Shown here piece by piece: positions 5,021 to 46,894 of a DNA stretch of 64,000 nucleotides. This stretch comes from Polynucleobacter sp. GTDB lineage: Bacteria > Pseudomonadota > Gammaproteobacteria > Burkholderiales > Burkholderiaceae. The DNA is taken from contig JAHEBW010000045.1 of NCBI GenBank assembly GCA_024642065.1, forward strand, positions 186,001 to 250,000. Direction: 5' to 3'. A program made the translations under genes and the position numbers. The notes under the pieces were generated by a model that saw nothing but the letters and a program-made list of their open reading frames with translations, searched no databases and was not told the origin of the DNA. How positions within the stretch are numbered: the stretch's first letter is position 1; every line of letters starts with the position of its first letter.

Positions 5021-5884
5021 ATGACAAACATGAATGCCCTTATTCCGATGCAATTAAATGTAGGTAGCTTAGACGCCTACATTTCTAGCGTTAATCGTCT
5101 GCCGATGCTCAGCGCGGCCGATGAGGTGCGTCTTGCTCGCGAGTTTCGTGATCATGAAAATCTGGATGCAGCTCGCACACTAGTTATGTCACACCTCAGA
5201 TTGGTGGTTTCAATTGCTCGTCAATATTTGGGCTATGGACTACCACACGCTGACTTAATTCAAGAAGGCAATATCGGTCTCATGAAAGCCGTTAAACGCT
5301 ATGATCCTGAACAAGGAACGCGTTTGGTGACTTATTCAATCCACTGGATCAAAGCAGAGATTCATGAGTACATTCTTCGTAATTGGAGAATGGTAAAAAT
5401 TGCCACAACAAAAGCTCACAGAAAACTTTTCTTTAATCTACGCAGCAATAAACCAAGCTTAAATGCATTGTCTCCTAGCGAAATCGCTAACCTTGCTCAA
5501 GCATTGGATGTACGCCAAGAAGATGTAAGAGAGATGGAAAAACGCCTATCGGGTGGCGATATTGCTATTGAGTCAAATGACTCTTCTGATGACGAAGCAT
5601 TTGCTCCAATTAACTGGTTATCTGATGACCGTTATGAACCATCTCAAATTTTGGCTCAACAAGAGAAGCGTGACCTCCAAGGCCCTGGCATTGATAAAGC
5701 TCTAGCAAGCCTTGATGAACGCAGCAGAAAAATTGTTTTAGACCGCTGGTTAAATGTATCTGATGATGGATCTGGCGCAAGTACATTGCATGATCTTGCT
5801 GCTGAATTCAATATTTCAGCTGAGCGTGTTCGCCAAATTGAAGCGGCTGCTCTTAAAAAAATGAAGTTGGCTCTTACAGCCTAA
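5021..5884 (+). CDS. rpoH: RNA polymerase heat shock sigma factor sigma-32
   Basis: LIQEGNIGLMKAVKRYDPEQGTRLVTYSIHWIKAEIHEYILRNWRMVKIATTKAHRKLFFNLR (RpoH box). Confidence 0.97.
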   Translation: MTNMNALIPMQLNVGSLDAYISSVNRLPMLSAADEVRLAREFRDHENLDAARTLVMSHLRLVVSIARQYLGYGLPHADLIQEGNIGLMKAVKRYDPEQGTRLVTYSIHWIKAEIHEYILRNWRMVKIATTKAHRKLFFNLRSNKPSLNALSPSEIANLAQALDVRQEDVREMEKRLSGGDIAIESNDSSDDEAFAPINWLSDDRYEPSQILAQQEKRDLQGPGIDKALASLDERSRKIVLDRWLNVSDDGSGASTLHDLAAEFNISAERVRQIEAAALKKMKLALTA

Positions 5885-38891: not shown

Positions 38892-40418
38892 CTATATGCT
38901 GTCCAAATCATTCAATATTTTTTTAGCATGCATTGAAATCAATTTTTGCTCTTCCACGGGTATTCTTTTGAGATTGGCCACCATTAATTTAGTGCGTGGA
39001 TTTTTACCAAATTCATCTTGATGATTAATTAGGAAATTCCAATATAAATTGGTCATTGGGCAGGCATTTTCACCGTAACGGACGTCGCTTTGATAACTAC
39101 AATTTTGACAATAGTTACTCATTCTTTTGACGTAGGCGCCACTTGCTACATATGGCTTACTTGTAAATCGTCCGCCATTGGCAAATAGAGCCATACCTGC
39201 GGTATTTGGTAACTCAACCCATTCAATAGCATCAACATAGACAGCGAGATACCATGCGCACACTTCCTGCGGAAGAATTTCTGCTAGCAATGCAAAGTTA
39301 CCGGTAATCATTAATCTTTGTATATGGTGCGCATAGCCATACTCGAGCGTTTGATTGATCGCGTCTTTCATGCACTCCATTTTGGTATTGGCTGACCAAT
39401 ACCAAGCGGGCAATTTTCTTTGATGATCGAAGTAATTATCTTGTGCCATTTTTGGCATATCTAAGTAATAAACACCACGCACAAATTCTCTCCAACCAAG
39501 AATTTGTCGAATAAACCCTTCAACAGAACTTATAGACCCACCACGAAGCTTCCAAGCATCCAAGGTTTTCTGAATAACCTCTTGCGGACTAATCAGCTTC
39601 AAATTGAGCGCACATGAAATTGTGGAATGCCATCCAAATGGTGTATTGGTCCACATGGCATCTTGATAACTGCCAAACAACTCTAGCCGATGCTCCACAA
39701 AATAATCGAGGGCTTTTAATGCATCCGTTCTAGTGACAGGCCATGCAAATTTATCCAGTCGGCCAGGATGATCTGGGTATTTTTTTAAAACATAATTAAT
39801 CACATCTTGCGTTATGTCATCAGGCACAAACGTTAATGGCCCATTGATTAAGCCGGGGCCTTTTTTGGAATAAGGCTTTCTATTTTGATCATCAAAATTC
39901 CATTGGCCGCCCTCTGGCTCACCATCTGCCTGCATCAATATTTGATGCTTTTTTCTCATGTATCTATAAAAGTACTCGAGTCTTAATTCTTTCTTATCAC
40001 CAGCCCACTCTTTAAACTCTTGTGTTGTGCAATAAAAATGAGTGTCTGGTCTTAACTCTAAATGGATCTTCAGACTTTGAGATAAAGATATCAAAGCATC
40101 TCGAAGTCTTACTTCACCAGGCTCAACACAAATTAAATGCGTAAAAGAATGCTCTGAAATATAAGCACTTAAAACTTCAACAATTGGAAGTTGATTTTCT
40201 TTTAGATAGCTAAGTCGATATCCTTGAGATATAAGATCAGCTGCAAAGTGGCGCATCGCCGATAAAAAGAGGGCTATTTTGGCTTTATGAGACCAGACGT
40301 ACTGAGCTTCATCTACAGACTCGATCATGATGATCTCGTCAGTAGCTAAATTAATGTCTTCTAAAGCAGAGCTATCGCTCTGCAGTTGGTCGCCCAGGAT
40401 AAGAACAAGTTTTTTCAA
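38892..40418 (-). CDS. Cryptochrome/photolyase family protein, FeS-BCP (PhrB-like, (6-4) photolyase-related)
   Basis: LVLILGDQLQ; RQILGWREFVRGVYY; VYVDAIEWVELPNTAGMALFANGGRFTSKPYVASG; cysteines EVC, YCQNC, ACPMTN fit the 4Fe-4S ligands. Confidence 0.93.
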   Translation of the reverse strand: MKKLVLILGDQLQSDSSALEDINLATDEIIMIESVDEAQYVWSHKAKIALFLSAMRHFAADLISQGYRLSYLKENQLPIVEVLSAYISEHSFTHLICVEPGEVRLRDALISLSQSLKIHLELRPDTHFYCTTQEFKEWAGDKKELRLEYFYRYMRKKHQILMQADGEPEGGQWNFDDQNRKPYSKKGPGLINGPLTFVPDDITQDVINYVLKKYPDHPGRLDKFAWPVTRTDALKALDYFVEHRLELFGSYQDAMWTNTPFGWHSTISCALNLKLISPQEVIQKTLDAWKLRGGSISSVEGFIRQILGWREFVRGVYYLDMPKMAQDNYFDHQRKLPAWYWSANTKMECMKDAINQTLEYGYAHHIQRLMITGNFALLAEILPQEVCAWYLAVYVDAIEWVELPNTAGMALFANGGRFTSKPYVASGAYVKRMSNYCQNCSYQSDVRYGENACPMTNLYWNFLINHQDEFGKNPRTKLMVANLKRIPVEEQKLISMHAKKILNDLDSI

Positions 40419-40422
40419 CTTG

Positions 40423-41391
40423 TTAGCTAGTATGTTTTTGTCGCCAGGCCTTAATGCCCAAAGAAATATCTTGTAATGCAGACATGATCATCACATCTTC
40501 TGGTGGACGTTTTCTTAAAGCTGAGTTTTCACCACCAGCCCAAACCTCAACTCCAGGGGCTAATTTTGACTTCAGTTCTTTTAAACCATCAACCACTTGA
40601 TTTTGATTAATTTGAGATGAGAATGACAAAGCAATAATGTCAGCTTTTTGAGCTCTAGCAGCTTGTGCAATTTCAAGAATCGGCGTTTGAGTTCCCAAGG
40701 ATACGCAAACACAACCCTCTAGAGCCATCAGAGCTTCAGCCATCAACAAACCAAGGCTGTGCTGCTCTTGAGGAAATGTGGTTAACAAAACTCTTGGTCT
40801 TGCTAACTCTTCGTTTTGACCTGTATGCCCACGCGGCACAGAGTTAATTGCAGTACGCAATAGATGCTTAATCTGCTCTGTAAACAAATGCTCTTCGTGG
40901 ATTTCAATCTTGCCTTCGGCCCAATAATCACCGATATTTTTGATAAGCGGGGCAACCACTTCAATCACAAATCGATCAAGACCAATTTTCATCAAAGTTG
41001 TTGATAAGGCAAGTCTTAAAGCCTCGGTTTGATGTGAACGCAATAAATCTAAATAACGTGCCATCTCATCTTGGGATATAACAGGACCATGAGATTGACG
41101 ATTTTCCTGCTCCTGCTCATGCATTAATTTCGAACTTAATTCTCTTAGTGCTTCAATCGGCAGAGGCACAATTCGACCCGGGCGATGGCCTAAATCAAGT
41201 AATCTCTTGATTAATCTTAGTTTTTCGATTTGGTCAGCTGGATAGACTCTATCGTCGTTACTGTCTCTAAGAGGCCTTGGAAAGTCATAACGACGCTCCC
41301 AGACCCTTAGAGTATCTTTTGCAATGCCAGTATCTCGCTCCACCGCAGCAATGCTTAGCATGTCGGGCAGGTTAGTAAATCTAACATTCAT
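40423..41391 (-). CDS. MerR family regulator with C-terminal cobalamin-binding domain (CarH/LitR-like)
   Basis: LSIAAVERDTGIAKDTLRVWERRYDFPRPLRDSNDDRVYPADQIEKL HTH; W-x9-EH (WAEGKIEIHEEH) and EQHSLG cobalamin motif; start at MNVRFTNLPD. Confidence 0.92.
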   Translation of the reverse strand: MNVRFTNLPDMLSIAAVERDTGIAKDTLRVWERRYDFPRPLRDSNDDRVYPADQIEKLRLIKRLLDLGHRPGRIVPLPIEALRELSSKLMHEQEQENRQSHGPVISQDEMARYLDLLRSHQTEALRLALSTTLMKIGLDRFVIEVVAPLIKNIGDYWAEGKIEIHEEHLFTEQIKHLLRTAINSVPRGHTGQNEELARPRVLLTTFPQEQHSLGLLMAEALMALEGCVCVSLGTQTPILEIAQAARAQKADIIALSFSSQINQNQVVDGLKELKSKLAPGVEVWAGGENSALRKRPPEDVMIMSALQDISLGIKAWRQKHTS

Positions 41392-41524
41392 AATTTGAGC
41401 ACTCGATATTTGTTGCCAAGCCAAATACTTGGTTCATATTAAGGGGAATTCTACACCGTCCTAGACAGAATTTGCATTTATTTATAATTAAGGGTAATAT
41501 TCCTCCATAAATATTTATTTGCCC

Positions 41525-41547
41525 TAGACAAAGCATCATTTTGTCTA
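41525..41547. promoter_or_regulatory. Palindromic candidate operator in the divergent litR-like/GPx promoter region
   Basis: TAGACAAA-GCATCAT-TTTGTCTA perfect 8-bp arms; related TAGACAGAA at 41462. Confidence 0.55.
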
Positions 41548-41588
41548 AGCAAGCATAAATAAAAATAGGGTCGAGGAGACAAGCCCAC

Positions 41589-42218
41589 ATGCAGGTCGAA
41601 GATAATAAAAGGCCATTCCCCACTCAAAAGGCTACAGACCTTGGGGATTCTTTTTTAAAAATACCCTTCATTGTTCTTTTCATTAGCGCTTTGATGTGGC
41701 TTTCTTGGCCAAAGGATTCGCAAGCTATGACATGCCCTGCATCACTATCCCACCAATTTTTAAGGCTTCAAGATGAAGCGCCGCAAGATCTTTGCCAATA
41801 CAGTGGCAAAGTGATCTTAGTTGTAAACACCGCAAGTTACTGTGGCTTCACAAGTCAATATGAAGGTTTAGAGCAACTCTACGCAAAATATAAAGATCAG
41901 GGTTTTGTGATCCTAGGCTTCCCATCGAATGACTTTGGTAAACAAGAGCCTGGGAACAACAAAGAAATTGCCGACTTTTGCCACAACACTTACGGCGTTA
42001 AATTCCCCATGTTTGCAAAGAGCTCTGTCTCAGGCAAAGATGCCAACCCATTATTTAAGTATTTAATAGAGAAAACAGGGACTAAGCCTCGTTGGAACTT
42101 TTATAAATACATCATTGACCGTCAAGGCAATGTAGTTGAGTCATTTAACAGCATGGCTTCTCCTAACAGCAAAAAACTAACTTCACTTGTTGAGAAGTTA
42201 TTGCAGGAGAAAAAATAA
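41589..42218 (+). CDS. Glutathione peroxidase family protein with N-terminal TM/signal
   Basis: VVNTASYCGFTSQYEGLEQLYAKYKDQGFVILGFPSNDFGKQEPG; KWNF-like PRWNFYKYIID. Confidence 0.93.
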   Translation: MQVEDNKRPFPTQKATDLGDSFLKIPFIVLFISALMWLSWPKDSQAMTCPASLSHQFLRLQDEAPQDLCQYSGKVILVVNTASYCGFTSQYEGLEQLYAKYKDQGFVILGFPSNDFGKQEPGNNKEIADFCHNTYGVKFPMFAKSSVSGKDANPLFKYLIEKTGTKPRWNFYKYIIDRQGNVVESFNSMASPNSKKLTSLVEKLLQEKK

Positions 42219-42357
42219 TGCCTGCCTTAGTTATACAAATTCTGTCGTAAAGTTTTCAACCATAAAACACATTAATTTTGAGCATGATTTCTCTCCCTCC
42301 CTTATTGATGTTCAAAAGTGTCTTATGGTTTTTTCTATTCACCTGTGGACATAAGTA

Positions 42358-43692
42358 ATGAAAATAGCAATTATTGGCGCAGGAATATCAGGCTTGGGTT
42401 GCGCATACGCACTCAGCAAATTACCTCAAGTTGAATTAACCATTTACGAAGGTGGCGATCATATCGGCGGTCACAGCAATACCGTAGATCTAACGATAGA
42501 CACTGCTCATGGGGCCATTACTCACGGTATTGATACTGGGTTTTTAGTTTTCAATCAAAGAACATACCCTCGTCTATTACGCCTGTTTGATGAATTAAAT
42601 GTTCCGGTTGCAAAATCAGACATGTCATTTTCTGCCTCTATTCCGCAAAGAGATAGCGGAGCCATAGAATGGGCCGGAACGAATATTGACTCAGTTTTTG
42701 CACAAAGAAAAAATCTAGCTAAGCCAGCCTTTCTCAGAATGGTTGCAGACATTATTAGATTCAATAAGCTTTGCACAAATTTAGCCATCGAAAATAAGTT
42801 GGGAACGCTGGAGCTATCAGTTGGTGAATTTATTGATAAGCATAAATTCAGCAAATCATTTAAGGATTGGTATTTCTTGCCAATGATTGGCGCCATCTGG
42901 TCATGTTCTACAGATCAGATGTTGTCATTTCCAATTTCAACCATGATTAGATTTTGTCATAACCATGGCTTGATCAAAATTACTGACAGACCACAATGGC
43001 TAACCGTTAACGGTGGGTCTAAGGAGTATGTCAAAAGAATCACTGATGCAATCAAATCTAATGGTGGAAAGTTTGTTAGAGAGCATGCAAACTCAGTAAC
43101 AAGATTGAATGGTGAAGTTGAAGTTGTGTCCAACACATCCTCAGAAAAATATGACCATGTTGTGATGGCAAGTCACAGTGATCAAACATTAAACATGTTG
43201 ACAGATCCAAGCAAAGAAGAAGAAAAGATTCTGGGCGCTATCACTTATCAAGACAACAGAGCAGTGCTACACACAGACCAGGGAGTTCTCCCTAAAAATA
43301 AAAAATGTTGGGCTGCTTGGAATTACGCAACAACACTAAGCGAAGGCAAAGAGGCGCAAAGAGTATGCGTTAATTACTTAATTAACAAACTTCAGCCTTT
43401 ACCAAGTGAATGGGAAGATCAACCAGTGATTGTGAGCTTAAACCCCGTCACTGAGCCAAGAAAAGAATCTATTCGCGCCGATATTCAATATGCTCACCCA
43501 GTGTTTGATGATGCCGCCATTCATGCGCAAGCTAACCTACCCCTGATTCAAGGAAACAATAACACTTGGTTCTGTGGTGCATGGACTGGCTATGGCTTTC
43601 ATGAAGATGGACTGCGCTCAGGTGAACTTGTAGCGGAAGCTATTTATGAAGTGCTTCACAAACCACAAAAACAGAGCCTCAATACAATATGA
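42358..43692 (+). CDS. FAD-dependent amine oxidase/NAD(P)-binding protein
   Basis: IAIIGAGISGLGCAYALSKL; GGDHIGGHSNTVDL; GAWTGYGFHEDGLRSGELVAEAI. Confidence 0.93.
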   Translation: MKIAIIGAGISGLGCAYALSKLPQVELTIYEGGDHIGGHSNTVDLTIDTAHGAITHGIDTGFLVFNQRTYPRLLRLFDELNVPVAKSDMSFSASIPQRDSGAIEWAGTNIDSVFAQRKNLAKPAFLRMVADIIRFNKLCTNLAIENKLGTLELSVGEFIDKHKFSKSFKDWYFLPMIGAIWSCSTDQMLSFPISTMIRFCHNHGLIKITDRPQWLTVNGGSKEYVKRITDAIKSNGGKFVREHANSVTRLNGEVEVVSNTSSEKYDHVVMASHSDQTLNMLTDPSKEEEKILGAITYQDNRAVLHTDQGVLPKNKKCWAAWNYATTLSEGKEAQRVCVNYLINKLQPLPSEWEDQPVIVSLNPVTEPRKESIRADIQYAHPVFDDAAIHAQANLPLIQGNNNTWFCGAWTGYGFHEDGLRSGELVAEAIYEVLHKPQKQSLNTI

Positions 43693-44465
43693 GCCTGGCT
43701 AAGTTGTGTTTTGGGCAAGTTCGTCATGCCCGCCTTCAACCGTCAAAAAATGCATTTGCTTATTCTGTCTTTACATTGCGTATTCCAATGCGCCAAAGAG
43801 AGCTTTCTCCAAGGGGTATTGCTCAAACTGGCTTAGGGGATAACTCATTTTCATGTTTATCTTTTTTCGACAAAGATCACGGAAATGGTAATGGCAAGTC
43901 TTTGGAATGGGCGCTCAATATTGCAAGATCTAATGGCATCACAGATATAGAGGGTGAAGTCTGGCTACAAACCTTTCCTCGCGTTCTCGGGTATGTATTT
44001 AATCCTGTTAGCTTTTGGTTTTTTGAAAACAAACAAGGCGATTTAAGAGCCATCATTGCTGAAGTTAACAACACATTTGGCGAAAGACACTCTTATCTTA
44101 TTTGTGATGATGAAGGTCAAAATCTAAAGTGGGGGCAGACTTTTGAATCTAACAAGGTTTTTCACGTATCTCCATTTTGCGAAACAACCGGTAAATACTT
44201 TTTTAGATTTTTTAGAACAGAAAACTCAAAGACTCAGCACGTCGCTAGAATTGAATATCATCACCAAGGCCCCGTCTTAATTACGAGCGTGAATGGTGAT
44301 GAAAATGACATTAGATTTAAAACCATTGTCTGGGCAATGCTTAGATACCCAGCAATGAGTTTTGGAGTTATATTTAGGATCCATTGGCAAGCATTAAAAC
44401 TTTGGATAAAAGGCGTGCAATTTCATAGCAAACCCAATCCGCCCGCAACGGAAGTCAGTAAATGA
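43689..44465 (+). CDS. DUF1365 family protein
   Basis: GQVRHARLQPSKNAFAYSVFTL; LGYVFNPVSFWFFENKQGDLRAIIAEVNNTFGERHSYL; ATGA overlap. Confidence 0.92.
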   Translation: MSLAKLCFGQVRHARLQPSKNAFAYSVFTLRIPMRQRELSPRGIAQTGLGDNSFSCLSFFDKDHGNGNGKSLEWALNIARSNGITDIEGEVWLQTFPRVLGYVFNPVSFWFFENKQGDLRAIIAEVNNTFGERHSYLICDDEGQNLKWGQTFESNKVFHVSPFCETTGKYFFRFFRTENSKTQHVARIEYHHQGPVLITSVNGDENDIRFKTIVWAMLRYPAMSFGVIFRIHWQALKLWIKGVQFHSKPNPPATEVSK

Positions 44466-45682
44466 ATACTCAAACTAACATATTGAATGATCAATCTGGG
44501 GCACTTCCATGGCATGCCAAAGCCCTGCTTAAACTTTTAGAAAATTTATGTGTTGGAAAGCTAAACCTAGTTGACCCCAACGGTAACCAATTCTGCTTTG
44601 AAGGCACTCAACCCGGCATTACTGCTCATATTCATATTCATAATTGGTCAGTATCAAAGGCCTGCCTTAAATCTGGTGACATTGGTTTTGCTGAGAGCTA
44701 TATCAATGGTGACTGGGATTCATCAGATATTGAAAGTTTATTGCGCTTACTGTTAGTCAATCGCCAAGTTATTGAAAAACTGATTTATGGCAGCTGGTGG
44801 GGAAGCCTTTTTCACAGACTCAAGCATTGGCTTAACAAAAACTCTAAAAAGGGTAGCAAGAAAAATATTCATGCTCACTACGATATAGGCAACTCGTTTT
44901 ATTCTCTTTGGCTAGATGAAAGCATGACTTACTCAAGTGCGTGCTTTGATGATAAAAACGTGTCTCTTGTTGATGCTCAAAAGAATAAATACGAAAAAAT
45001 CATTGCATCCATAGGCATTCAAGAAAATGAGCGCCTTCTAGAGGTTGGTTGTGGCTGGGGTGGCTTGATGGAGACCGCCAAAAGAAAGAATATCGCAATT
45101 GATTGCCTAACCATTTCTCAAGAGCAGGCAGCATATGCTCAAACAAGAGCTAATGAACTAAACCTTACTCATTCAAGCCCCGCCAATATTATTCTTCAAG
45201 ACTATCGTGATCACGAAACTCAATATGATGGTATTGCATCTATTGAAATGTTTGAAGCCGTCGGTGAGGAGTATTGGCCAAGTTACTTTGAGATGATTAA
45301 TCGCTGTCTCAAACCAGGTAAAAAAGCATGCATACAAACTATTGTGATTGCTGAAGAATTATTTGAAAAATATCGTCATAACTCTGACTTTATCCAGCAA
45401 TATATTTTCCCGGGTGGCATGCTGCCTTCAACTGCCATATTTAAAAAATGTGCTGAAGATGCTGGCCTTATTGTTGAAGATGCTTTCTCTTTCGGCAAGG
45501 ACTACCAAAAAACTTTAGAGATCTGGCATTCACAATTCAACTCATCCCTTGGTGAAATTAAAGCGCAGGGTTTTGATGAAAAGTTTATTAGGCTTTGGAA
45601 TCTATACCTCATGTATTGCGCGGCTGGCTTTGCCGAAGAAAGCACAGACGTGATTCAATTTACATTAAGAAAACCTGCCTAG
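44462..45682 (+). CDS. Cyclopropane-fatty-acid synthase family SAM methyltransferase
   Basis: HYDIGNSFYSLWLDESMTYSSACF; LLEVGCGWGGLMETA; SIEMFEAVGEEYWPSYF; QQYIFPGGMLPS. Confidence 0.94.
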   Translation: MNTQTNILNDQSGALPWHAKALLKLLENLCVGKLNLVDPNGNQFCFEGTQPGITAHIHIHNWSVSKACLKSGDIGFAESYINGDWDSSDIESLLRLLLVNRQVIEKLIYGSWWGSLFHRLKHWLNKNSKKGSKKNIHAHYDIGNSFYSLWLDESMTYSSACFDDKNVSLVDAQKNKYEKIIASIGIQENERLLEVGCGWGGLMETAKRKNIAIDCLTISQEQAAYAQTRANELNLTHSSPANIILQDYRDHETQYDGIASIEMFEAVGEEYWPSYFEMINRCLKPGKKACIQTIVIAEELFEKYRHNSDFIQQYIFPGGMLPSTAIFKKCAEDAGLIVEDAFSFGKDYQKTLEIWHSQFNSSLGEIKAQGFDEKFIRLWNLYLMYCAAGFAEESTDVIQFTLRKPA

Positions 45683-46462
45683 ATGCCCCTCAATCAACCC
45701 ATTAATAACTTTATTAATAAGAGAGTTTGGATAATTGGTGCATCCAGCGGCATCGGGGAAGCAACCGCTCATAGCCTTCTTAAGCTTGGGGCAAAGGTTG
45801 CGCTAAGCGCAAGAAAAACCGAAGAGCTCCATAAGATTCAGAGCCAGTACCCCGAAGATCAAACACTTGTTTTACCGTGTGATGTATTAGATGACGCTGC
45901 CATAGAAAATTCATATAAAACAATTAAAGAATTTTGGGGCGACCTTGATCTACTACTTTATGTCGCCGGCATTTATGAGCCCATGAGAGCAGAGGAATTT
46001 AACTTAAGCGCCGCAAAAAATATCATTGCAACCAATGTCATCGGGCCAATGGCAGCATGCGCAACCGTTCTGCCAGATTTCATAATCCGTCAATCGGGCG
46101 GCATTGGGATTGTTTCCAGCGTAGCGGGTTATAGTGGCTTACCAAAAGCTCTTGCTTACGGTCCGAGTAAAGCAGCCATGATTAATTTCTGCGAAAACCT
46201 CTACTACGATCTTAAACCTCTTGGCATTAATGTTTATATGATCAATCCAGGGTTTGTTGCAACCAGAGCAACTGCCAATAATGATTTTTATATGCCCGCC
46301 TTGATTTCTAGCGAAGCTGCTGCGGACTATATTGTGAATGGCTTAAGAGATGGGGAATTTGATATTCATTTTCCAAAAAGATTTTCTTTGTTCTTAAAAT
46401 TTCTCAGAATTCTTCCTTACTCAGTATATTTTTTCTTTATCAAAAGAATTTTGAAAATCTAA
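45683..46462 (+). CDS. SDR family NAD(P)-dependent oxidoreductase
   Basis: VWIIGASSGIGEATAHSLLKLGAKVALSAR; SSVAGYSG...AYGPSKAAM. Confidence 0.93.
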   Translation: MPLNQPINNFINKRVWIIGASSGIGEATAHSLLKLGAKVALSARKTEELHKIQSQYPEDQTLVLPCDVLDDAAIENSYKTIKEFWGDLDLLLYVAGIYEPMRAEEFNLSAAKNIIATNVIGPMAACATVLPDFIIRQSGGIGIVSSVAGYSGLPKALAYGPSKAAMINFCENLYYDLKPLGINVYMINPGFVATRATANNDFYMPALISSEAAADYIVNGLRDGEFDIHFPKRFSLFLKFLRILPYSVYFFFIKRILKI

Positions 46463-46894
46463 ATGACTCAAGAATCTATAACGCAAGAAATTATTCAAAG
46501 ATTTGAAAATCTTGAGTTAAATAGCATTGATAGCCTATTAGTGCTCTACGATGCGCAAGCGCTTTTTAAAGATCCCTTTAATGAAGTCACTGGAAAGCCA
46601 GCAATTCAAAGAATCTTTACGCACATGTTTGACCAAGTCGACAACCCTAGGTTTATTGTGACTAAACATATGGCAGCAGACAATCAAGTTTGTCTTACTT
46701 GGGAGTTTTGCTTTAACTTTAAAAATAGTTCTGATGAGCAACAAGTCATCAAAGGTTGCACATGGCTGACATTGAGTCGTGAACTCTTAATCACCGAACA
46801 TAGAGACTATTGGGACCCCGCCGAGGAACTTTATGAAAAGATTCCTCTCCTTGGGGGTTTTATGCGCTTTCTTAAGAAAAGTCTTCGCGCTTAA
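46463..46894 (+). CDS. Nuclear transport factor 2 (SnoaL-like) family protein
   Basis: YDAQALFKDPFNEVTGKPAIQRIFTHMF; EHRDYWDPAEELYEKIPLLGG. Confidence 0.88.
   Translation: MTQESITQEIIQRFENLELNSIDSLLVLYDAQALFKDPFNEVTGKPAIQRIFTHMFDQVDNPRFIVTKHMAADNQVCLTWEFCFNFKNSSDEQQVIKGCTWLTLSRELLITEHRDYWDPAEELYEKIPLLGGFMRFLKKSLRA

Follow-up and report, generated by a model that had tools for sequence, protein, structure and literature searches.

A candidate B12-dependent LitR divergon joins photolyase, peroxidase and predicted furan-lipid genes in Polynucleobacter

Could a coenzyme B12-binding regulator place DNA repair and membrane protection under a single light switch in a freshwater bacterium? The question is raised by a gene cluster in a 64,000-nt stretch of a Polynucleobacter genome of 1.67 Mb (GCA_024642065.1, contig JAHEBW010000045.1, positions 186,001 to 250,000), hereafter the window, in whose own numbering all coordinates are given. 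Here a photolyase gene (phr) and the gene for a cobalamin-binding MerR regulator (litR) diverge from a glutathione peroxidase gene (gpx) and a cassette resembling the ufa genes of furan fatty acid synthesis. We consider the locus likely to be a divergon under LitR control, in which photolysis of adenosylcobalamin (AdoCbl) would derepress repair and membrane-protection genes together. The eight genes, two divergent units and gene families listed in a first-pass annotation were borne out by the positions and strands of the open reading frames (ORFs) and by Pfam for each of them: phr (38892..40418) and litR (40423..41391) on the minus strand, and gpx (41589..42218), ufaD (42358..43692), ufaO (43689..44465), ufaM (44462..45682), an SDR gene (sdr; 45683..46462) and an NTF2 gene (ntf2; 46463..46894) on the plus strand. 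The tight packing described for the ufa unit also held, with 4-nt overlaps at 43689/43692 and 44462/44465 and zero-gap junctions at 45682/45683 and 46462/46463; gpx and ufaD are 139 bp apart. The litR gene probably starts at 41391 instead of at the TTG at 41424 of the listed ORF, because its homologues begin MNVRF, and the divergent intergenic region would therefore be 41392-41588. Among named genomes, those with close relatives of this LitR were all Polynucleobacter.

The LitR protein has a MerR helix-turn-helix (HTH) domain followed by two B12-binding domains (MerR_1, B12-binding_2 and B12-binding in Pfam), the architecture of the CarH/LitR family, and is a candidate photosensor repressor of that type. 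CarH was its best match both by sequence (E 8e-22) and by predicted fold (full-length CarH, E 3e-16), and identity to CarH and class I LitR is 28-29%. Residues G128, W131, E141, H142, H177 and G180 are kept in all 14 Polynucleobacter LitR orthologues, defined as matches with E<1e-150; W131, E141, H142 and H177 are experimentally proven AdoCbl residues (PMC11796333). Several features weigh against a CarH-like switch. Residue 132, the cobalt-ligand His of the Thermus CarH light state, is Ala or Val in 14/14 orthologues and the His is missing in all ufa-linked LitR relatives too; an engineered Thermus CarH, TtCarH H132A, mostly stays tetrameric in the light, the His being needed for light-driven disassembly (PMC10442372). 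Of the signature GxxW, EH, GxxH and GxxxP (PMC11796333), LitR has GxxW, EH and GxxxP, with Gln at the glycine of GxxH, and it scores 108 bits against the 400-bit cut-off of the CarH equivalog model (NCBIfam NF052513). The photoactive CtMerR is also without His132 (Arg there) yet photolyses (PMC11796333), and we regard His132 as defining the Thermus mechanism, not the CarH/LitR family. Because LitR lacks this His, yet CtMerR is photoactive without it, photolysis in LitR is plausible, and its release step would have to differ from that of Thermus CarH.

LitR might instead be a repressor that is independent of B12, or that binds B12 and is insensitive to light, like CarA or class II LitR, with induction by a partner protein or reactive oxygen. 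The missing His132 and the largely absent light disassembly of TtCarH H132A (PMC10442372) are consistent with this, as are three known regulators: Myxococcus CarA functions without B12 in spite of its canonical B12-binding motif, class II LitR governs much the same genes with no use of B12, and reactive oxygen species have been proposed as the signal of the Vibrio cholerae MerR. We nevertheless judge a non-photosensing LitR rather unlikely. Its B12 domains are full, and none of the four proven AdoCbl residues varies among the 14 orthologues, most related LitRs having them too; class II LitR is defined by absence of the cobalamin-binding motif and use of a LOV partner, having lost the C-terminal B12 domain that is retained here, and among the window genes adjoining litR none was noted as encoding a LOV or BLUF protein. 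The photolysis of CtMerR without the His points the same way. As for cofactor supply, the window genome encodes a PduO-type adenosyltransferase, a search for CobA/CobO/BtuR found none, and MetH is encoded approximately 4 kb downstream. ATP:cob(I)alamin adenosyltransferase was rejected as a marker of LitR, as it was present in 149/151 genomes.

Alignment of the 14 Polynucleobacter litR-gpx intergenic regions revealed TAGACA boxes common to all. In the window these correspond to candidate operator box A (ACCGTCCTAGACAGA, 41455..41469) and box B (TTTGCCCTAGACAAA, 41518..41532), the latter with one mismatch to TTTGTC-N3-GACAAA; a candidate half-site follows (TTTGTCTAA, 41540..41548), at which many sister genomes keep TTTGTC(C/T)AAG in the alignment. 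The full palindrome TTTGTC-N3-GACAAA appears at distant LitR loci. Allowing up to one mismatch, 32 copies of the box fell within the 14.4 kb of litR promoter zones, compared with 2 in 701 kb of other, flanking DNA, a count that is as much description as test, the pattern having been derived from some of the same regions, and to which the 14 non-independent Polynucleobacter sites and approximately 11 other lineages contribute. Paired boxes 62-64 bp apart were present in six lineages (Polynucleobacter, Eleftheria, G459, G356, G300/G412 and G237), with pairs 74 bp apart in Azoarcus and 21 bp apart in Comamonas; these spacings approximate 6, 7 and 2 turns of the helix. The A-B spacing is 63 bp in the window, counted from the sequence, and 62 bp in relatives. 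The first-pass view of a LitR/CarH-type cobalamin-binding MerR beside a photolyase and a membrane-lipid cassette is supported in outline: the regulator retains CarH residues, and the divergent promoter region contains an operator-like palindrome. A sigma-70 promoter scan of the intergenic region gave matches no more frequent than chance, so we claim no promoter, and no RNA families or tRNAs were found in the window.

A second target is predicted away from the locus. Searching the LitR genomes with TTTGYC-N3-GACAAA returned a recurrent unlinked site 5' of an osmC-family gene adjoining rplM, approximately 82-87 kb from litR in four LitR genomes. This box, with two mismatches or fewer, lies 31-47 bp before the start codon in 8/11 LitR genomes, the window genome included, and in 0/19 LitR-less genomes, where the best matches had 4-5 mismatches. 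Shuffled osmC upstream regions contained a match with two mismatches or fewer in about 1% of cases. Because it was found after the pattern had been fixed, the osmC site is the best independent support for LitR acting via the box.

Two observations count against this assignment of the operator. Box A of the window is weak, with 4 mismatches, being better in sister genomes (CTGTC(C/T)TAGACAG), and LitR-less relatives keep AATGTCTTAGACTT 5' of gpx, whose core resembles the LitR box. In LitR-less genomes such as L110 and L113 it lies in the rfaE2-gpx intergenic region; an exact match was found in 10/13 LitR-less genomes, exactly once in each of these, and some TGTC-N3-GAC-like conservation is therefore independent of LitR. 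The element may be read by another regulator or may have turned into a promoter element. As LitR-less relatives also have the TGTCTTAGAC element, TAGACA boxes were not accepted as sole proof of LitR control. The box was accepted because unrelated lineages carry it at litR and because its presence at osmC is restricted to LitR genomes.

A second alternative is that LitR controls phr-litR only and is merely a neighbour of a gpx-ufa operon governed by an older, LitR-independent, genus-wide element. Distribution within Polynucleobacter bears on this directly. A LitR orthologue was present in 14/151 genomes and missing from 137, and the gpx-ufa operon was nearly universal (UfaO in 147/151); B12-binding matches of 290-330 aa in LitR-less genomes, at 20-27% identity, were set aside as other B12-binding proteins. 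In 24/26 inspected LitR-less loci, gpx-ufaD-ufaO-ufaM-sdr followed rfaE2 as in the window, with no phr or litR, gpx lying a few bases upstream of ufaD and dsbA beyond the operon where the contig reached. LitR carriers have phr-litR situated between rfaE2 and gpx, at a fixed chromosomal site, and form one clade both in flanking-gene trees (support 0.98) and in ufa-gene trees (1.0). Gene order is kept in all 14, one of which (G008) is without ufaD-sdr. The first-pass annotation had named linkage of the two units in relatives as one point that could refute the module, and the outcome is mixed: the 137 genomes without LitR almost all keep the ufa operon, yet wherever LitR occurs in the genus the units are linked, G008 having lost ufaD-sdr. 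We consider it unlikely that litR is a mere neighbour, despite the prevalence of LitR-less operons and the unique AATGTCTTAGACTT 5' of gpx, since 14/14 LitR genomes have box B in the part of the divergent region nearer gpx, the osmC box is confined to LitR genomes, and litR is again linked to ufa genes in Azoarcus, Agitococcus, G257, G459, G356, G500 and G237.

LitR carriers differ from other members of the genus in a further gene. A second folE2 (GTP cyclohydrolase IB) is located between gpx and ufaD in 12/14 LitR genomes and in none of the LitR-less genomes. By alignment, the window lineage is read as having lost it, because its 139-bp gpx-ufaD gap (42219..42357) aligns with the folE2-ufaD intergenic region of sister genomes. 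Within Polynucleobacter, phr-litR and the second folE2 form a one-clade layer on an otherwise genus-wide, older gpx-ufa operon. Gain of phr-litR by one clade and repeated loss in others are both possible, because the phr-litR and divergent gpx-ufaD-ufaO-ufaM order also occurs in another Burkholderiales family (L162, G257), there with three more genes. Class-wide LitR relatives below approximately 30% identity are mostly without ufa genes and without the box. LitRs of this kind at L165 and L166 (G300, G412), L046 (Eleftheria) and L045 (Comamonas) have the same box and no ufa genes within 9-10 kb.

Several individual loci depart from these patterns. In the closest relative, a metagenome-assembled genome (L091, G008), phr, litR, gpx and folE2 are kept and ufaD-ufaO-ufaM-sdr is gone, through deletion or an assembly artefact. 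Two small LitR-less genomes among those whose loci were inspected (L098, G016; L100, G102) have frameshifts or stops in the ufa operon, indicating gene decay, and in two further cases (L103, G031; L104, G086) the ufa cassette is at another chromosomal site, with phr and DUF3833 genes nearby and no LitR in L103. In one genome (L092, G150), at a site separate from the ufa operon, a divergent LitR-like gene has a perfect box and adjoins a second gene with a B12-binding domain. In the window, an inverted repeat of 16 nt around a 41-nt loop, with a T run after it (42258-42330), lies just 5' of ufaD and is a possible attenuator or leader.

Each enzyme encoded at the locus has a family assignment. 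The phr product is an FeS-type bacterial (6-4) photolyase of the CryB family (FeS-BCP; Pfam DPRP), matching CryB (PDB 3zxs) and PhrB (4dja) at E~1e-132, with the four FeS-cluster cysteines (C...CxxC...C) visible in its sequence. Gpx is a Cys-type glutathione peroxidase (Pfam GSHPx) whose hydrophobic N-terminal segment, a signal or anchor, recurs in its relatives. A GFPSNDF-like motif is common to the signal-bearing group of which it is a member, and this group recurs beside litR or ufa genes in other families; the peroxidase had been taken as a distinctive addition, a view that this recurrence and the periplasmic enzyme of the Shewanella RpoE2-ChrR regulon (PMC4336711) do not favour. The window enzyme has Asp at the catalytic-Gln position of classical peroxidases (GFPSNDF versus GFPCNQF), a feature kept in relatives across families.

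In the described route to methylated furan fatty acids, cis-vaccenoyl chains receive a methyl group from UfaM, after which UfaD introduces a double bond and the DUF1365 protein UfaO adds oxygen derived from O2 (PMC7380195). All three families are present together here: an FAD-dependent fatty-acyl desaturase of UfaD type (Pfam NAD_binding_8/Amino_oxidase), a DUF1365 protein of UfaO type for the furan-forming, O2-dependent step, and a Cfa-like SAM methyltransferase of UfaM type (Pfam CMAS; alignment to Cfa). The lipid product, which the first-pass annotation held not to be defined by the sequence, becomes predictable as a furan lipid because families and gene order match UfaD-UfaO-UfaM (PMC7380195). 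A caution is that UfaD, UfaO and UfaM were assigned by family and order, not by comparison with the Rhodobacter sequences themselves. Synthesis of cyclopropane instead of methyl or furan fatty acids by the Cfa-like enzyme, whose best solved relatives are Cfa enzymes, is very unlikely: gene overlaps couple it to enzymes of UfaD and UfaO type, which work on what UfaM produces; the cysteine of the Cfa motif YSC is replaced by Ser (YSS) and the His of HTIG by Gln (QTIV); and UfaM homologues make an 11-methyl product (PMC12089945), though some cyclic acids have been recorded with ufaM. The predicted UfaO structure is a beta-barrel with weak, lipocalin-like PDB matches and no solved relative at E<0.001. 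Downstream, the SDR oxidoreductase (Pfam adh_short) is of the family of RSP1087-type genes, RSP1087-1089 being dispensable for furan synthesis in R. sphaeroides, and the NTF2/SnoaL-like gene (Pfam SnoaL_2) also follows sdr in L044, L043, L162 and L163. Chalcone-isomerase, MFS and DUF3833 genes are kept in the ufa operon of Azoarcus and G257, and all three are absent from Polynucleobacter.

Membership of the operon in an RpoE-ChrR-type singlet-oxygen regulon is highly improbable, although that regulon contains the same enzyme families in Rhodobacter and Shewanella (PMC7380195, PMC4336711), since no TGATC-N18-CGTA promoter was found 5' of gpx in 22 LitR-less relatives or in the aligned region of LitR genomes, and a genome-wide sigma-70 region 2 search (ChrR not searched) gave one weak extracytoplasmic function (ECF)-like match, E 6e-4, below the cut-off and on another contig. 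The same promoter result leaves singlet oxygen unsupported as the direct signal. An earlier remark agrees with our data: the window contains no ECF sigma factor, its sole sigma-70 region-2 match being at approximately 5180-5389 in a 290-aa frame.

For the LitR-controlled divergon, we infer B12 binding, a light response, the direction of repression and the furan product as parts of one scheme. In the dark, AdoCbl-loaded LitR would occupy two palindromic boxes, located between litR and gpx at a distance of approximately six turns of the helix from each other, and repress both promoters. Light would break the Co-C bond and LitR would leave the DNA, allowing FeS photolyase and more LitR to be made on one side. 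On the other, the exported peroxidase would be produced together with UfaM, UfaD and UfaO, which would in turn add a methyl group, a double bond and oxygen to the acyl chains of phospholipids, yielding a methylated furan fatty acid, with the SDR and NTF2 products as putative accessory proteins of the pathway. The unlinked OsmC-family hydroperoxide-type protein would be released from repression as well. We also put forward, tentatively and as a possibility short of an even chance, that ufa-linked LitRs are a distinct AdoCbl photoreceptor class, naturally without His132 and with another release mechanism, acting on paired palindromes that lie on one DNA face (2, 6 or 7 turns apart) and are probably bridged, with furan-lipid, peroxidase and OsmC targets in place of carotenoid genes.

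If the divergon operates in this way, coenzyme B12 photoreception governs membrane furan-lipid synthesis and peroxide defence, beyond carotenoids, in widespread Proteobacteria. The analysis supplies a predicted operator and regulon open to testing, and poses the puzzle of a natural CarH-like protein lacking the His that Thermus CarH needs to disassemble in light. In Polynucleobacter, relatives that have the switch can be paired with relatives that lack it, both carrying the operon in the same chromosomal position.

Set against known systems, the module is best described as a streamlined form of the LitR-photolyase-ufa neighbourhood, whose regulator retains its B12 domain and lacks His132 and whose candidate operator is a distinct pair of palindromes. 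Newly described are the palindrome at litR, the box at osmC, the one-clade occurrence of phr-litR and folE2, and the layout shared with another Burkholderiales family, including the recurrence of gpx. CarH and class I LitR of Thermus thermophilus and Bacillus megaterium are alike in MerR HTH, four-helix and Rossmann B12 domains and in W131, E141, H142 and H177, and Thermus CarH likewise has an adjacent photolyase. In contrast to LitR, with its predicted photolyase, peroxidase and furan-lipid targets, CarH has His132 and targets carotenoid genes, and its operators are contiguous 11-bp direct repeats, nAnnTnnACAn (PMC8156234), whereas palindromic paired boxes occur here. The light-induced Pseudomonas class II LitR regulon (PplR1-3/PmlR1-2) resembles the locus in placing litR beside phrB, SDR, FAD oxidoreductase and ufaM genes, phrB and ufaM being light-induced under the LitR homologue, and in including a folE-type gene, comparable to the second folE2 of sister genomes (PMC9758184). 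Those regulators have lost the cobalamin-binding motif and C-terminal B12 domain and use LOV partners, and their operator, T(G/A)TACA-N12-TGTA(C/T)A (PMC9758184), is unlike TTTGTC-N3-GACAAA. The Vibrio cholerae MerR (VCA0056)-phr operon is similar in its blue-light-induced MerR and photolyase (PMC5241685); that MerR operates alongside ChrR-sigmaE, and class IV LitRs of Vibrio are reported to be without a B12-binding domain (PMC9758184). The Shewanella RpoE2-ChrR regulon unites the same families, a periplasmic glutathione peroxidase (PgpD), photolyases, SDR and cfa (PMC4336711), but under ECF sigma control and at separate loci. The furan pathway of Rhodobacter and Rhodopseudomonas uses the same three families, and the ufaD-ufaO-ufaM order is that of R. 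palustris RPA2571-2570-2569 (PMC7380195). In R. sphaeroides the ufa genes are under RpoE-ChrR, with RSP1089 and RSP1088, both dispensable for the furan acid there. Its ufa operon includes an SDR gene, as here. Other ufa operons carry MFS and DUF3833 genes, and Polynucleobacter maintains the cassette without these.

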